Source: Microcoleus sp. AS-A8 (lineage in GTDB: Bacteria; Cyanobacteriota; Cyanobacteriia; Cyanobacteriales; Coleofasciculaceae). Taken from it: 64,000 bases of DNA. The number at the start of each line of letters is the position of its first letter. The first letter of the stretch is position 1. The notes under the pieces are model-generated. The model was not told the origin of the DNA, ran no database searches, and saw only the letters and a program-made list of their open reading frames with translations. Below, one piece after another: positions 1,682 to 63,127 of the stretch. The translations under genes were made by a program, and so were the position numbers. The stretch is taken from positions 62,001-126,000 of the forward strand of contig JAMPKV010000015.1 in the NCBI GenBank assembly GCA_039962225.1, written 5' to 3'.

Positions 1682-3841
1682 TCAATCATCCACTGCCCCT
1701 AGTGCTTTCAGCGTCGCTTTCTGGGCATCCGTCAAACCTGTAACGCCTGTAATGTTCATGCCTTCGTAGGGTTTGGGGACTGGTAGCGTTTTTAGGCAAT
1801 CACCTGTCTTTGCATCCCAAAGCTTAATCGTCTCATCTTGGCTGGCACTGGCTATGCTGTGACCATCCGGACTGAAGGCAACTGACCAAACCCAATTGTC
1901 GTGTCCCTGGAGAACTTTCAGCCATTCACCAGTACTAACCTCCCACAACCTCACTGTTTGGTCGTGACTGCCACTTATCAGCCTCGTGCCATCAGGACTG
2001 AACATCACTGAGACCACCATGCTGTCGTGTCCCTCCATAGCACCAGCAAAATTTACACCAGATAGAGTTGCATCTTGCACGTAAGCTTGCCAAACTGTCA
2101 AACTAGAAAAATCCCAACCACTTAAATCTATCTGCATCTGCCGCAGGAGATTAATTACATTCCCAGCGACATAACCCGTTTCTCGTGTTCGCTTTTCTCG
2201 CACAGATGCGAGAATTAGATTGAGTTTATCTTCTAGAACTTGGTTGTTTTCAAAAGTAGAGATTAGCCGCTCGGCAAGGGGTTTTAGGATAAGGCGAACT
2301 TGCGTGTCTCTCACGTAGTCTTTCGCTTGAGCTTTTAGCAAGGCATGGCTCTTAAAAAGGGTTATTTGGGCGGTAATTATCTCGTGGCAAACTTGTTCAA
2401 TGAACTGGTCTATCATGTATTGCATGACGACGGGTTGCTGGGTGAAGCCGTCTGAGTTTTTTTCACTAGATGTAGGCGCAGCCTTTTCGATTAGAGAGCG
2501 CCTTACAAGAGAAGTTAGTGTTTCTAGGAGTTCAGTTGGCGATATTTTTTTGGCTAAATCTTGTTGTAATTGTAAGAAAGAAACTGGTTCTCGATTGATA
2601 GCAATCCAATACATCAGCTCTTTTTCGGGAGCGGATAGGCGATTGAACTGTTGGTCTAAGAGATTGCGAATATCATCAAAAACTAATATATCTTGATTTA
2701 ATAAATCTAAAAAACTAGAAACACTACCCTCAAATAAATCTCGAATGGTTGGAGCTAGCCTTTTTAAGGCTAAGGGATTGCCAGCATAGTGTTCAATCAG
2801 TATTTCCCATTCGGATTCTGAACCTGAAAAAGAACCCTTCGCTCCAAAAATTTTCTGTCCTTCTATTGGGGATAAACCCGTTAACTGTAATGAACGAACA
2901 GGTAGTGTTTCGCCCTCCTTTAGGGCTAGTTCTTTCAATTTTTCCCGACTGGTTAAAATGAGAGTACTTTTATGAAGTGTTTCCGCCACAGTTTTGAACA
3001 GTTGACCATAATCCTCATATCCTTCTCGATATCCCCCTGTGCGTTGGCGTAGCCCGCCGCAGGCATCGCCTTCTCGTAAAATTGATTCAGCATTATCCAG
3101 AACGAGCAAACAGCGAGATGCTCGTAAATATTCAAGCAGCCGCAAAACTCTGCCGTATACCGTTTCCGGTAAAGCCGTTTCCTTTTGTTGGGAGAGAAAT
3201 TGGATCAGATCAGCCAGGAGATCAAGAATGGGTGGAGCATTGCGGAGACTGCGCCAGATGACAAAATCAAATTGCTCCTGGATGCGTTCAGCTATCTTGA
3301 TGGATAAGGCAGTTTTACCCATGCCACCCATCCCCAATACCATAACTAAGCGGCAGCGTGAAGCGTAGCTATCCCGAAGGGAATCGCTCACAATCCACTG
3401 CTGTAGTGTGGTGAGTTCTTTTGTGCGTCCATAGAAAACGGAGACATCGATCGCCTCTCCCCAATCTTGACACCGATTAGCTGTAGCCACCTCAGCAGTA
3501 ATCAAAGGAGGAATCGCTTCATTTTGAGGCGCTTGAGTATTTCTACCCTGATCAGCAGAAGTACTGTTTGATGGTGCCACGACTACTTGCACCTGTTGTG
3601 CCTTTCGCCGCAGGACTGATTGCAGATTATTCTTTGTAACCTTTTCTCCCAGCACCTGACTCAGGAGCTTCCATAACTGGTACCCAATCAACTTGATGTA
3701 CTCAGCATCATAACCAGCACTCTTAGCCACCTCTGGATAAGAGCGTCCTTCCCAACTTTGCCGAAAGACTAACTCTTGAACATCGTTGAGATGCTGGGGA
3801 AGGATAGAGTCTAAGAAAAGGAGTGCTTCGTCAACGCTCAT
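1682..3841 (-). CDS. NB-ARC/WD40 STAND NTPase with shortened propeller
   Basis: This is a signal-transducing ATPase of about 719 aa. Residues 1-90 are an HTH-like N-terminal domain ([16 protein letters not shown]), of the kind found at the front of many cyanobacterial NB-ARC proteins. The NB-ARC P-loop GMGGMGKT lies near residue 172, and Walker [10 protein letters not shown] is present. A helical region follows, then only two WD40 repeats (ending in RLWEV and KLWDA) and a conserved C-terminal tail, [21 protein letters not shown]. The start at ATG 3841 matches the paralogue at 6675; a TTG at 3850 is possible. Two short dispersed repeats sit in frame within the gene. Two WD40 blades cannot close a propeller alone, so blades were probably lost by recombination. 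Regulatory or immune sensing is inferred from the family. Confidence 0.85.
3041..3070. repeat. small dispersed repeat A, in frame in STAND gene
   Basis: The core GGCGTAGCCCGCCGCAGGCA encodes the odd ACGGLRQR stretch in the middle of the NB-ARC domain, just after Walker B. A near-identical copy, with 2 differences in a 27-bp core, lies inside ispD at 11850-11876. Removing 24 bp would restore a normal [12 protein letters not shown] junction. Small in-frame mobile repeats of this kind have been described in cyanobacterial genomes. Confidence 0.75.
3357..3390. repeat. small dispersed repeat B, in frame in STAND gene
   Basis: A partly palindromic element (GATTCCCTTCGGGATAGC on the coding strand) encodes DSLRDSYAS just before the P-loop. 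The paralogue at 4967-6675 reads WIVEERCR where this gene reads [16 protein letters not shown], an 8-residue (24-bp) insertion. A diverged copy overlaps the crr6 start at 13502-13525. Confidence 0.75.
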
Positions 3842-3957
3842 GTATTCCAATCAAGTTAACCCGTCGGTAGATTATCGTTAGCTCGGAGCTTACCCCTCTG
3901 GTGTTTCCCTAATGGCTCCAACACAGTAGTTCAAATCGGGGCATTGATGAGCTTTAG

Positions 3958-11215: not shown

Positions 11216-11923
11216 TTACAATCCTAATCGCTGGCGGAGAATAAATTCCGCGATCGCTAAATCCACCGGAGTCGTCACCTTGAGATTCGTCTCCTCCCCT
11301 TCCACAATTCTTACGGGCAACTTGCACCGTTCAAACAAAGCCGCATCATCCGTAACTTCCCATCCCAAAGTACGCCCTTTGTCATGGCACTGCTTGAGCA
11401 ACTGTACGTCAAATCCTTGAGGCGTCTGGGCTGCCCATAGGTTCTTGCGTTCGGGTGTATCTTGAATCACGCCTGTTGGATCGACGACTTTAATCGTGTC
11501 CTTCACGGGTACAGCCGCAATTAAACCTGGACAATCAAGCAGCACGGCAGCACACCGATTCAGGAGTTGGGGGGTGGCTAAACATCTAGCCCCATCGTGA
11601 ATCAATACCCGTTGTGCCTCAGGTGGCAACGCCTGCAAGCCGTTATAGACTGATTCCTGGCGAGTGTCTCCTCCCTGAATCAACTGCACGGGTTTTGAGA
11701 GGGAAAGCTCCCCCAGAATTTGCTGAAAGTCAGACTGGTCAGCGGGTTGTCCTATAATACCAATCCAGGTAATATCATCTGCGGCCTCTGCGGCTAGGAG
11801 AGTCCAAGCTAGTATTCGTTTACCCATCAGGGTCAACAGAAGCTTATTACGTTGGCGAAGCCCGCCCCAGGCATCGATCCCCATCCGCCGGCCCATCCCT
11901 GCTGCTGGAATTAATAAATGCAC
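11216..11923 (-). CDS. ispD: 2-C-methyl-D-erythritol 4-phosphate cytidylyltransferase
   Basis: IspD transfers CMP to methylerythritol phosphate in the non-mevalonate isoprenoid pathway, which feeds chlorophyll, carotenoids and quinones. The nucleotide-binding start LIPAAGMGRRMG, QGGDTRQESVYNGL, VLIHDGARCL and the late TDDAALFE motif are all present; length is 235 aa. Start is GTG 11923 with AGAGGAAG upstream. A short stretch, IDAWGGLRQR, interrupts the usual spacing between RRMG and NKLL. It adds about 7 residues and is encoded by a small dispersed repeat. The insertion is next to the CTP-binding loop, yet everything else is intact and no other copy is in the window, so it is probably tolerated. 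Confidence 0.93.
   Translation of the reverse strand: MHLLIPAAGMGRRMGIDAWGGLRQRNKLLLTLMGKRILAWTLLAAEAADDITWIGIIGQPADQSDFQQILGELSLSKPVQLIQGGDTRQESVYNGLQALPPEAQRVLIHDGARCLATPQLLNRCAAVLLDCPGLIAAVPVKDTIKVVDPTGVIQDTPERKNLWAAQTPQGFDVQLLKQCHDKGRTLGWEVTDDAALFERCKLPVRIVEGEETNLKVTTPVDLAIAEFILRQRLGL
11850..11876. repeat. small dispersed repeat A inside ispD
   Basis: Copy of the element at 3041-3070: 25 of 27 core bases match. It is inserted in frame and encodes DAWGGLRQR, immediately after the GRRMG nucleotide-binding loop of IspD. Confidence 0.75.
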
Positions 11924-15274: not shown

Positions 15275-15308
15275 AGCGATAGCGAAGCGCTGCTGCAAGC
15301 AGAGCGCG
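15275..15308. repeat. small dispersed repeat C, intergenic
   Basis: Contains GCGATAGCGAAGCGCTGC, which recurs exactly (reverse strand) inside the KaiB-like gene at 62401-62418. It can pair with CGCTTCGCT just upstream (around 15255) and has its own GCGCTGCT/AGCAGAGCGC stem. It lies between the convergent DUF2182 and PLD genes. Confidence 0.65.
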
Positions 15309-30984: not shown

Positions 30985-32169
30985 TTAAGCCTTAAAAAGC
31001 CCAATCAGCAAGGCGATGGGTGCTGCAAGTAACATCCACATCGTAGGTTGCAAACCATACTGTTGAGCCACCCAACCTAGTACAAACGGGGCTAAACCAC
31101 CCACGAAACCCGCCAGGTTGTTGAGTGTCATGACTGTCCCACTCTGCCCTGGCATCGCTGTGTACAATCGCCCCTGAAGAATTGAGTACCAACCTGCATT
31201 CAAGAACCCCAGAAAGCCGAGAATGATCAACTTAACATTGAGATTGGGCACAATCAAAAAAGCCGGGTAGAGGCACAAAACAATCATTGCGCTAAACCTC
31301 AAATAAGCGAGTCCTTGCACTCGTTCAAGTAAGGGAATGAGGAGAAAATCTCCGAGTAAGCCAAACCCCAACCATACGGTGATAGCAAAACTCGCCTGTG
31401 TGTTACTTGCACCGACGACATCAACAAAATACAGTGCTAAAAAACCACGCAGAACATCCAACATTAAATCCGAAAATTGCAACAACGTTAACCAACGGAG
31501 TACGTTGCGTCGTTTTAAGCTGTTGATAGCTTGACGGATACCATCGTTGAAACTTTGTATTGGCTGCTCAACTTGAGATGAGGCGGTTAGAGTTGCGATT
31601 GGATACTTCCACAAGATTCCTAGCAATAATACTGTTAGTACCGCCAAGATTAAAAACACACTCCGCCAACTTTGATTTAATGCTACAGCACCTGCTAAAG
31701 CCAAAGGTCCAATGACATTACCAACAGAACCCGCCAATGTCCAACGTGCCATGTTTTGCTCGTGGCGTGTTGGTTCCATGTCCATCAGCGTCGCCTGGGA
31801 AAGACTGACAAAGGAGCCAGAGGCGGGATAAAACAGCACAAACGCGGCTAATAACCCAAAAAAGTGATGACTGAGGGAAATGAGTAGTAATGCGATCGCA
31901 AAAGCAATACCTCCCCCCAAAATCAATTGCCGTCGCTGTCCCAAATCTCCTAAAATCCCCAGAATTGGCTCTATCAAGCTACTGATAGTATTGGGTATCG
32001 TCAGCAACAGTCCCACTTGCACATAGGAAAGATGCAAATCAGTCCGAATCAACGGATAGGCTGCACCCCCCACTCCATCCACAAGTTCGTCTAATAATTC
32101 GATCGCCAGGAAGATAATCGTTAATACAATTACAGTCTTGGTCGTTTTGTTTTTACTATCCAATGACAT
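30985..32169 (-). CDS. MFS transporter
   Basis: A 394-aa protein with about 12 membrane helices. The loop EPILGILGDLGQRRQLIL between helices 2 and 3 is the MFS signature, and GFLGFLNAGWYSILQGRLY marks the second half. It resembles the fosmidomycin-resistance type branch of MFS. It ends 14 bp from the stop of a MarR gene on the other strand, which suggests regulated efflux of a small molecule. No signal of decay. Substrate unknown. Confidence 0.85.
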   Translation of the reverse strand: MSLDSKNKTTKTVIVLTIIFLAIELLDELVDGVGGAAYPLIRTDLHLSYVQVGLLLTIPNTISSLIEPILGILGDLGQRRQLILGGGIAFAIALLLISLSHHFFGLLAAFVLFYPASGSFVSLSQATLMDMEPTRHEQNMARWTLAGSVGNVIGPLALAGAVALNQSWRSVFLILAVLTVLLLGILWKYPIATLTASSQVEQPIQSFNDGIRQAINSLKRRNVLRWLTLLQFSDLMLDVLRGFLALYFVDVVGASNTQASFAITVWLGFGLLGDFLLIPLLERVQGLAYLRFSAMIVLCLYPAFLIVPNLNVKLIILGFLGFLNAGWYSILQGRLYTAMPGQSGTVMTLNNLAGFVGGLAPFVLGWVAQQYGLQPTMWMLLAAPIALLIGLFKA

Positions 32170-58405: not shown

Positions 58406-60322
58406 GTGGGTAGAAATCGCTGGTGGATAACTGGGAGAGGACTTGTTTCGTTCTTAATGGCAGCGGTTTTAGCTTGGGGATTAGTGGGCTGTAGCGGCTT
58501 CCCTAGGGGTAGCTCGGGTTCAGGCATTGAGACATCACAAGGTCTCAACAGCGAGGCCGCTAAGCCTCAACTCACAGGTCAGCTCTCAGAAGTAGCGCCG
58601 CCCCCAGCCATTCAAAAGTTAAGCCAGACCTTGGAAGCTTACCAGCCTCAAGTCACGATTGTGGCTCCCCGAACTGATCAGGTTCTCCAAGACACAAGCG
58701 TATCAGTACAATTTCAGGTTCAAGATTTACCCATCTTTAAAGACCCAGATTTAGGTCTAGGCCCTCATCTGCACGTCATTCTGGATAACCAGCCCTATCA
58801 AGCCGTCTATGACTTAGACCACCCACTTGTCTTTGAAGATTTAGCCCCTGGAACTCATACCCTGCGAGTTTTCGCCTCCCGCCCTTGGCATGAGAGCTTC
58901 AAGAACGAAGGAGCCTATGCCCAGACAACATTTCACGTCTTTACAAAAAGTACCGATAACAACCCTGAGCCAGCCTTACCCTTGCTGACTTATAGTCGCC
59001 CTACCGGCAGCTACGGAGCCGAGCCGATTATGCTCGACTTCTACCTGACGAACGCCCCTCTGCATTTAGTAGCTCAAGAAAATCCGAATGATGATGTTGC
59101 CGATTGGCGCATTCGCGTCACGATCAACGAAGAAAGTTTTGTTCTTGATCGCTGGCAGCCGATTTACCTTAAAGGATTTAAGCGGGGCAAAAACTGGGTG
59201 AAGCTAGAGTTTCTCGACGAAGAGGGAAACCCGGTTAAAAATGTTTTTAACAACACAGTGCGGCTGATTAGCTACGAGCCGAAAGGAAAAGACACCCTTT
59301 CTAAACTGGTGCGCGGCGACCTCTCGGCTGAGGCAGCTCGTGGTATTGTAACTTCCGGCTACAAAACAACACCAACCCTCACCCCCTCACCTGCCGTAAC
59401 ACCGACTCCCAACCCGTCACCCACCTCACTCCCAACCGTTACGCCAGAACCCATCCCTTCTACACCTCCTGCTGTTGAAGAAACACCAAACCCTGAATTA
59501 GAGACGCCATTAGCAGAACCCACACCCTCTGTTGAATCTCCAACAACACCGAGCGAATCCCCATCTCCTGTAGAAGAACCAACTCCCACAGAAGAAGCAC
59601 CGACGAGTGAACCCGTAACCCCGCAAAAACCCAGGTTCGGAGGTTTCTTAAATCGCTTCCGTCGTCCGGCTGTGGCTCCTAGCCCCTTACCTGAACTATC
59701 AGAACCAGAGGCTCCCATTAATGTACCGGTGATTGTGCCAGAGGAAACCGAACCGATGCCAGAACCAGAGGCATCGCCTACTCCCAGCGAATCACCAGCC
59801 CCTGTAGAAGCACCGACTTCTACGGAGGAACCAACTCCTACTACACCTGTAACTCCCCAAAAGCCCAAATTTGGAGGTTTCTTAAATCGCTTCCGTCGTC
59901 CTGCGGCTACACCCAGTGAACAGCCTGCCCTACCAGAGGTATTAGAAACTCCCTCTTCGGAACCCCTGGAGGTACCCGAACAAGCCGAACCCCCTGCCTC
60001 TGGGGAAGAACTGACCATCCCACCTGAGCTGACAAAGCCAGAAGCGGAACCCACTCCAGTAATTACACCCGTCCCTGTTCGACCCATACAGCCGGAAAAA
60101 TCCCTAACCGATGGCCTCTTGAAAGGGGATCAATCTCCTGCGACCAATGGAGCAACTTCAGATTCTGAGTTACCGCCAACACTACCGGAGATTGTAGGGA
60201 CACCAGCTCCAAAACTTTCGGAGCCAGACGTTTCCCCTTCTGCAACATCGGAAGCACCAGCCTCTGAGGCAAAATCAACGGATGTACCTTTAGGGGAAGA
60301 AACAATTCCTGAGACTCGATAG
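58406..60322 (+). CDS. proline-rich lipoprotein with paired RFRRP repeats
   Basis: A ~638-aa exported protein. GTG 58406 is chosen because AGGAGG ends 8 nt before it; an upstream ATG at 58367 lacks such a site. The N-terminus is a lipoprotein signal (SFLMAAVLAWGLVGCSG, lipobox LVGC). Residues ~80-310 form a folded part of unknown type (ITVEEL-free, with LHVILDNQPYQAVYDLDHPLV). The rest is Pro/Glu/Thr/Ser-rich, with two 78-residue-spaced copies of PQKPxFGGFLNRFRRP. A 68-bp tandem duplication overlaps its end. Function unknown; envelope anchoring is inferred. Confidence 0.75.
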   Translation: MGRNRWWITGRGLVSFLMAAVLAWGLVGCSGFPRGSSGSGIETSQGLNSEAAKPQLTGQLSEVAPPPAIQKLSQTLEAYQPQVTIVAPRTDQVLQDTSVSVQFQVQDLPIFKDPDLGLGPHLHVILDNQPYQAVYDLDHPLVFEDLAPGTHTLRVFASRPWHESFKNEGAYAQTTFHVFTKSTDNNPEPALPLLTYSRPTGSYGAEPIMLDFYLTNAPLHLVAQENPNDDVADWRIRVTINEESFVLDRWQPIYLKGFKRGKNWVKLEFLDEEGNPVKNVFNNTVRLISYEPKGKDTLSKLVRGDLSAEAARGIVTSGYKTTPTLTPSPAVTPTPNPSPTSLPTVTPEPIPSTPPAVEETPNPELETPLAEPTPSVESPTTPSESPSPVEEPTPTEEAPTSEPVTPQKPRFGGFLNRFRRPAVAPSPLPELSEPEAPINVPVIVPEETEPMPEPEASPTPSESPAPVEAPTSTEEPTPTTPVTPQKPKFGGFLNRFRRPAATPSEQPALPEVLETPSSEPLEVPEQAEPPASGEELTIPPELTKPEAEPTPVITPVPVRPIQPEKSLTDGLLKGDQSPATNGATSDSELPPTLPEIVGTPAPKLSEPDVSPSATSEAPASEAKSTDVPLGEETIPETR

Positions 60323-60389
60323 CACCAACCTCAGAGGCAAAATCAACGGATGTACCTTTAGGGGAAGAAACAATTCCTGAGACTCGATA
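60254..60389. repeat. 68-bp tandem duplication at lipoprotein 3' end
   Basis: Copy 1 at 60254-60321 and copy 2 at 60322-60389 differ at only two positions. The unit is not a multiple of three, but copy 1 still ends in TAG, so the protein end is unchanged and copy 2 is untranslated. Confidence 0.9.
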
Positions 60390-61984: not shown

Positions 61985-63127
61985 CTAGTCTTCTGGAACA
62001 GCTAGTATTCGTAGGATTCGTTCAGCATCTGTCAAATCACCCACGATGCGCCGGACAGGTTGAGGCCAAACTCTGAGCAATGTTGGGGTGGCGGAGATTT
62101 GATTGGCCTCGGCTTGATCAGGGTGTTTAAAAACGTCGATAACTTTCAGGGTATAGGGAAGACGCAGAGAATTCTCTAACAACTGGTGCAGGCTCATGAG
62201 GATATATTCCGTGGCTGCACTGTGTCCCGACACAAACAAGCGCAATACGTAACCTTGAGCTTGTTGCAATTGGGCGTCAGGCGGAATTTCTAAAGAATTG
62301 CTGTGTACTGTCGCTGGCGTTGGGTGGTGAGGGGGGGGCGTGTTCGTCGTTTTCTGAATGCGATCAGCGCTAGGCTTCGGCTGCTCCAACGGAGTACGCC
62401 GCAGCGCTTCGCTATCGCCTCCCGTTTGTGCTGTCGTAACGCTGTCACTAGGGCTAACGGAGCCAAAAGTTGTGAAACCCTGTTCAGGCGTTAACTCCTG
62501 AGGTGCTTTGTACTCTTGTGCTAAAGTTCTGTGGCTAATCACTTCTCCCTGTGATCCTAAAGCCGATTCTGATGTCGTAGCTTCGGCGGGAGAAGAGGTT
62601 AAATTTTCCTGGAAAGAGCTGTCGCCCTGTGTGTTTTCTAAAGGCACTTGCTTAAGCTGGTGGCTGGGGGAACTTCCGCTATAAGAGTATGAAAATTGCT
62701 CAGTGCGCTCAAAACGCACAATCAAATCATGGTCTTCCCAAAGTTGGGGGAACTGATGGCGATAAGTCTCCAGAACGAGCGGATCGCATAATCCTTCTTG
62801 CCAGGGAGCCAATTGCCAGACTAGGTTGCCGATGCCAAATACGGCATTGAGTAAAGCTTGGTGATGCCGCACGAGCGGGTAAATCTCGGCTGAAGTCTGT
62901 ATTTGTCGGGTTCGTGGGTCGAGCCAGCGATCAATGGTTGCGGTGTACCCTGGCACTAAAAAATGAGGTGGTTCCGGCAATCCTAAAATTTCTTGCAGAG
63001 CTACACACAAATGCATATGCCAATGGCCCTGCTTTTTGGGATCAAGGCAATAAATTAAGTCTGCTCCCGGCGTAAATAGGGCAATGCCTTTAAACAACTG
63101 GGGGAAAAGTGGTTTCTCAAATTTCAA
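61985..63127 (-). CDS. KaiB-like protein with N-terminal domain of unknown function
   Basis: A 380-aa protein. The C-terminal ~95 residues (from about 285) match the KaiB/SasA-sensor thioredoxin-like fold: YVLRLFVSGHSAATEYILMSL, YTLKVIDVFKHPDQAEAN and TPTLLRVWPQPVRRIVGDL. This is a KaiB-like domain, not KaiB itself. The N-terminal ~150 residues (FKGIALFTPGADLIYCLDP, LCVALQEILGLPEPP) belong to an uncharacterised cyanobacterial family. A Ser/Thr/Pro linker separates them and includes a short repeat-derived stretch (GGDSEALRRT). A clock or light-response role is inferred. Confidence 0.8.
   Translation of the reverse strand: MKFEKPLFPQLFKGIALFTPGADLIYCLDPKKQGHWHMHLCVALQEILGLPEPPHFLVPGYTATIDRWLDPRTRQIQTSAEIYPLVRHHQALLNAVFGIGNLVWQLAPWQEGLCDPLVLETYRHQFPQLWEDHDLIVRFERTEQFSYSYSGSSPSHQLKQVPLENTQGDSSFQENLTSSPAEATTSESALGSQGEVISHRTLAQEYKAPQELTPEQGFTTFGSVSPSDSVTTAQTGGDSEALRRTPLEQPKPSADRIQKTTNTPPPHHPTPATVHSNSLEIPPDAQLQQAQGYVLRLFVSGHSAATEYILMSLHQLLENSLRLPYTLKVIDVFKHPDQAEANQISATPTLLRVWPQPVRRIVGDLTDAERILRILAVPED
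62401..62418. repeat. small dispersed repeat C in KaiB-like linker
   Basis: The reverse complement GCGATAGCGAAGCGCTGC is identical to the 18-bp core at 15275-15308. In frame it encodes GDSEALRR in the disordered linker, a tolerant insertion site. Confidence 0.65.

Follow-up and report, generated by a model that had tools for sequence, protein, structure and literature searches.

The SDR5 repeats of Nostoc punctiforme and its relatives are reportedly about 21–27 nt in size and are said to share a secondary structure. In Rickettsia, the small repeats called Rickettsia palindromic elements (RPE) end as extra peptide inside working proteins; they are longer, at about 100 nt and more, and to our knowledge they are not tied to any 8-nt palindrome. 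The passages of Elhai 2015 (PMC4390886) that concern SDR5 place its insertion point between nucleotides 3 and 4 of the octamer HIP1. The repeats of the REPIN/RAYT system are short and non-autonomous and lie scattered through the genomes of bacteria, that of Nostoc punctiforme included, and the relevant part of its description presents REPINs as extragenic, palindromic and tied to RAYT transposases (PMC3116915).

The present analysis concerns an insert in the gene ispD that can be set beside each of these systems. As in RPE, an extra peptide appears to derive from a small repeat. With SDR5 the insert shares the HIP1 point between nucleotides 3 and 4, as given in the passages cited above, and the form of a very short module (a 21-nt core here), copies of which occur on plasmids of Nostoc as well as in the genomes of several cyanobacteria; unlike SDR5, it is read in frame as part of a loop at the active site of a core enzyme, and the genome concerned holds four copies. 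REPINs are likewise short repeats dispersed in bacterial genomes, but the ispD insert is intragenic, whereas REPINs are extragenic in the part of their description referred to here. Judged by its insertion point, its size and its multiple dispersed copies, the ispD insert is best read as SDR5-type. We consider it very probable that a copy of such a repeat inserted precisely into a HIP1 octamer of ispD and added seven residues to a loop of an enzyme that most likely still works. The kind of element is already known, and what appears new is recurrent insertion at one active-site loop. Our literature search, which covered titles, the openings of abstracts and a few passages, with subscription journals mostly outside its coverage, found no account of repeats in ispD or of recurrent loop insertion.

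The ispD insert and its empty site

The window, that is, the whole 64,000-nucleotide stretch of DNA analysed (C15:62001-126000), comes from a 7.75-Mb genome in 54 contigs, whose relatives are cyanobacterial. Its features at ispD are as follows.

11216..11923, minus strand: ispD, 2-C-methyl-D-erythritol 4-phosphate cytidylyltransferase, 235 aa, GTG start
11873..11877, minus strand: first part of the split HIP1, TCGAT here and GCGAT in G001
11852..11872, minus strand: inserted 21-nt core GCCTGGGGCGGGCTTCGCCAA, codons A18–Q24 (AWGGLRQ), missing from G001 (L002)
11849..11851, minus strand: last part of the split HIP1, CGT here and CGC in G001

The encoded protein matches the Pfam family IspD (PF01128, E 2.3e-79), and its TIGR00453 (NCBIfam) score exceeds the cut-off of that model. 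An earlier note on this DNA, made from the letters alone, had seen no other ispD in the window, and this holds for the whole genome, where all seven candidates were scored and a single match was found. From general knowledge of the MEP pathway, ispD is presumed essential. As a side observation, an ispD search at E ≤ 0.001 matched nothing in two genomes rated 99% complete (G192 and G223).

The N-terminus of the enzyme reads LIPAAGMGRRMG-ID-AWGGLRQ-RNKLLL. AWGGLRQ thus forms seven in-frame residues that begin two residues past RRMG (after MG-I-D) and lie between the conserved R13 and K27. The earlier note had put the insert directly after RRMG and beside the CTP-binding loop; the insert starts two residues further on and lies inside the loop. 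Its coordinates, 11850-11876, were right to about one base, the repeat measuring 11849-11877 with the HIP1 remains and 11852-11872 for the core, and the lengthening that it gave as about seven residues is exactly seven (A18–Q24).

The same note had pointed to close relatives for an empty site, and one is present in G001, a genome of the same genus with an ispD that, apart from the insert, matches ours at 96% identity. There the site reads GGG AGC GAT CGC AAT AAG (empty-site sequence GGGAGCGATCGCAATAAG) and holds HIP1, GCGATCGC, an 8-base palindrome common in cyanobacteria, whereas our site reads GGG ATC GAT [GCC TGG GGC GGG CTT CGC CAA] CGT AAT AAG. HIP1 is split by 21 nt as GCGAT/CGC, or GCG/ATCGC on the other strand, which is between nucleotides 3 and 4, and one base has been altered since in each of the two remnants. 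AWGGLRQ is absent from all 19 own-family IspDs that were read, G001 among them. Among 138 distinct empty ispDs, a non-random set made up of best matches and deliberately fetched genes, 54 hold an exact HIP1 at the site. The target, a HIP1 octamer, explains the place of the insertion.

In the mechanism that we propose, an SDR5-type copy would enter HIP1 (GCGAT/CGC) within the ispD codons Ser-Asp-Arg; the net length of 21 nt and a frame free of stops would yield seven extra residues in the flexible R13–K27 loop, and the longer loop would most likely leave IspD working.

Condition of the enzyme

Several observations bear on whether IspD tolerates its longer loop. Across the 228 codons shared with G001 there are 33 synonymous and 10 non-synonymous changes, giving a dN/dS of 0.086, which is an average over both branches and not a value for our branch after the insertion. 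The eight amino-acid differences divide into three on our branch, two on that of G001 and three that are unplaced; two of the three on our branch are near the insert, S16I at the junction and P36R. R13, M14, G15, R25, N26 and K27 do not vary across an alignment of 50 IspDs from cyanobacteria, and six of these proteins carry inserts (our own and five others). R13 and K27 align with residues of the E. coli enzyme that we take to be its R20 and K27, presumably CTP-contacting or catalytic. The AF2 model has a mean pLDDT of 88.9, with residues 10–23 below 50; the insert loop is predicted to be disordered, and the model gives no usable geometry for it. The best PDB matches of the predicted model are IspDs, led by the B. 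subtilis enzyme with bound CTP and Mg (5hs2; TM 0.85/0.88).

The low dN/dS, the intact predicted fold and the disordered loop together suggest that the insertion is most likely tolerated. The claim that the rest of the enzyme is intact is borne out in that the catalytic motifs are kept and the fold is predicted to be intact. By these predictions the gene shows every sign of encoding a functional enzyme, and we infer that IspD is active with its insert and that the insertion was close to neutral. IspD is a herbicide target. Several of the PDB matches of the model are inhibitor complexes, and a permissive active-site loop in such a target is of practical interest.

Separately, the change at residue 36 replaces a nearly invariant proline with arginine and involves two base changes (CCC in G001, CGA here).

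Copies of the repeat in this and other genomes

The 27-nt pattern GATGCCTGNGGCNGGCTNCGCCNACGC, allowing up to three mismatches, occurs at four places in the 7.75-Mb genome, compared with none for the reversed pattern, and twice in the window, compared with none in 100 dinucleotide shuffles. The central point of the earlier note holds: a repeat that also occurs at other places in this genome lies within the nucleotide-binding loop of the one ispD found. The copies outside ispD are listed below, with the open reading frame that holds the first of them.

1682..3850, minus strand: 722-aa NB-ARC/WD40-type ORF, whose plasmid matches are annotated as NB-ARC or WD-repeat protein
3041-3069, minus strand: second window copy, GCGATGCCTGCGGCGGGCTACGCCAACGC, in frame in the NB-ARC/WD40-type ORF
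L036 1501-1527 (G000:C4:120510-120536): copy in a metallopeptidase-like gene, in frame
L037 302-330 (G000:C7:302-330): fourth own-genome copy, in opposite reading sense in its ORF (ALAKLAEGIA)

All four places are contained in ORFs, and three encode D-A-x-G-G-L-R-Q-R, the fourth being read in the opposite sense. The metallopeptidase-like gene has the same HIP1 junction as ispD; G010 is empty there, with the HIP1-like sequence TGCGATCG, and G005 is filled with a cleaner copy, in a match that is a short fragment. By our own reading of its HELVH motif, rather than by a family search, this gene may encode a YgjP-like metallopeptidase. At the second window copy, the plasmid NB-ARC matches are shorter, but the three read of 37 records (56–61% identity) have a variable stretch and no HIP1 there, so that they hint only faintly at an empty site. 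This copy lies shortly after the LVLDNAE motif of its protein, again near a nucleotide-binding site.

The comparison of filled and empty sites suggests that the copy reached ispD as a mobile element. Against recent movement in this strain we count the low copy number of the repeat in this genome ('Repeat A', four copies) and the several bases by which those copies differ. Beyond this genome, copies are present in 23 of 57 genomes, our own included, with no match of the reversed pattern. The consensus repeat gave 81 plasmid records at E ≤ 1, of which 35 are from Nostoc, 24 from Pseudomonas and some from further non-cyanobacterial sources; the Pseudomonas and other non-cyanobacterial matches are probably due to chance at this threshold. 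Searching with the 21-nt core only gave 87 matches from seven genomes. Exact GCGAT...CGC flanks were found at 18 of the 30 core loci read, and 22 were within one mismatch, the other eight being further off; three of the loci read lie in a single shared context.

RNA folding of eight versions of the element, each as a single sequence, gave no significant structure relative to shuffles (z from -1.64 to 0.49). The 14-mer GGGCTTCGCCAACG was set aside as evidence of a repeat because it is too short: at up to three mismatches it has 10 matches in the window, a number also attained by 2 of 100 shuffles, where 4.56 are expected, and genome-wide, at up to one mismatch, it has three matches compared with nine for the reversed pattern.

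Recurrence at the ispD site and its interpretation

An order-wide search, for which the 47-aa probe included an insert, matched 372 of 388 genomes. At least 11 of the matched genomes, our own included, have an insert at the ispD site, across six genera and six families; this count is a lower bound, taken from the best matches listed singly among the 372. Besides our own genome, the carriers are G050 and G474 (g43), G570 (g234), G384 (g62), G538 (g200) and, in genus g30, G482, G575, G585, G567 and G507. Their DNA falls into three insert types, namely our own, a C-type (GCGA[A/G]TGCCT...CCCAACGC) and a FAT-type (GCGAGTTCGCTACGCGAGGGCTACGCCAACGC and near variants), and the last 15 bases of the FAT-type, GGGCTACGCCAACGC, are identical to those of the second copy in our window. 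Compared with HIP1, the C- and FAT-types have A or G in place of T, with a net gain of 24 nt. Outside the order, ten further rows show a W-containing insert of eight residues (five in L148), spread over the f48 group and one genome each of f50, f36 and f45. The inserted peptides vary in both sequence and length (7, 8 and, in one case, 5 aa). None of the 159 distinct ispDs read shares the loop of our enzyme, but the insertion is not unique, as other lineages carry different inserts there. Argonema antarcticum (L084, the G449 gene) and the filled L129 (the G474 gene) are identical at every base compared, 17 nt on the near side of the site and 18 nt beyond it.

A tree of the 159 ispD rows, computed with the insert columns left out, requires 15 changes between filled and empty, at least six of which are forced by well-supported branches, with minima of at least two changes for the C-type, three for the FAT-type and one for the W-type; this is a quick tree in which 74 of 156 inner branches are open and long W branches meet. 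G001 is the sister of our ispD in this tree, at 98 support. Genus g30 contributes five filled and five empty rows that alternate, a pattern that would need gain on more than one occasion, precise loss, or else recombination, and that does not choose among the three. The alternating rows are L183, L187, L188, L075 and L125, with the FAT-type insert, and L209, L210, L211, L215 and L059, which are empty; two of the empty sites read GCGAGCGC and three read GCGATCGC.

The inserts of FAT-, C- and W-type have the look of related modules that likewise entered HIP1, and their origin as dispersed repeats is suggested by their place, their HIP1 remnants and their partial likeness. If they are such modules, the ispD loop would be a repeatedly used, permissive site. 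We lean, by a little, towards a model in which the Ser-Asp-Arg HIP1 site in the CTP loop of IspD is an insertion hot spot that at least three kinds of mini-element entered independently in several families, sometimes to be precisely lost later, and where they are now fixed in the active-site loop. On this model, the f48 group could show ancient and eroded cases in its W-type loops. Our own genome offers a natural case in which a 21-nt repeat became coding sequence bordering an active site; the sister genome has the empty site, the target octamer is known, and the other lineages are apparent natural replicates that make the insertion of tiny elements, HIP1 targeting and tolerance in core enzymes testable.

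Could the loop instead be an old feature of IspD that was deleted in relatives rather than inserted here? Such a history would account for inserts in scattered lineages, including the W-form in f48 and in the single f50, f36 and f45 genomes, and for the alternation in g30, which looks as though some sites had been emptied. We nonetheless regard it as very improbable, given that 19 of 19 other own-family ispDs read are empty, with G001 as a well-supported sister (98), that our insert matches repeats whose HIP1 junction is the same although their loci are unrelated, and that the insert types are different sequences. Adaptation, in which selection here and elsewhere favoured a longer loop for its effect on inhibitor sensitivity, regulation or the binding of CTP, also strikes us as unlikely, if somewhat less so. 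The recurrence at one site in at least 11 of the 372 matched genomes and the position of S16I and P36R near the insert fit this idea; however, the peptides differ in sequence and length, the loop is predicted to be disordered, close relatives live without the insert, and three changes on our branch are too few for testing.

More serious, though still doubtful, is the possibility that the inserts of other families did not arise by independent insertion but were passed on within pieces of ispD, through short-patch recombination or transfer. The FAT-type is nearly identical in g30 (f19) and g200 (f31), and FAT-bearing genomes have no second copy at up to two mismatches; both points speak for this possibility. 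Transfer of the whole gene, however, does not suit G538, whose ispD lies inside the g200 clade at 100 support, and the codons of G538 near the site partly match those of g200. Exchange of this sort would leave our own insert unexplained, since no other ispD read contains its sequence, and for it we retain the insertion of an SDR5-type copy into HIP1.

That the FAT- and C-type sequences are dispersed repeats of their genomes is not supported at up to two mismatches: the former matched in 6 of 15 genomes and the latter in 3 of 7, and every match lay in ispD. G384, a seventh FAT-bearing genome, has a variant too divergent to match in this search. The W-type, at up to three mismatches, matched in 2 of 10 genomes, both times in ispD and with no dispersed copy, and the FAT-type sequence gave only weak plasmid matches (13 records, E about 3). 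G050 does contain a 21-nt sequence closely related to its C-type insert, in nine copies.

Elsewhere in the 159 ispDs, there is one internal insertion of at least four residues, in a single row (L149, the G027 ispD), near our residue 129. Finally, the window has other repeated stretches: positions 15277-15290 and 62404-62417 share GCGCTTCGCTATCG, and 31492-31515 and 62386-62409 share CCAACGGAGTACG, each resembling a further dispersed repeat, while a 68-nt unit occurs twice in tandem at 60248-60383, its copies being 94% identical.
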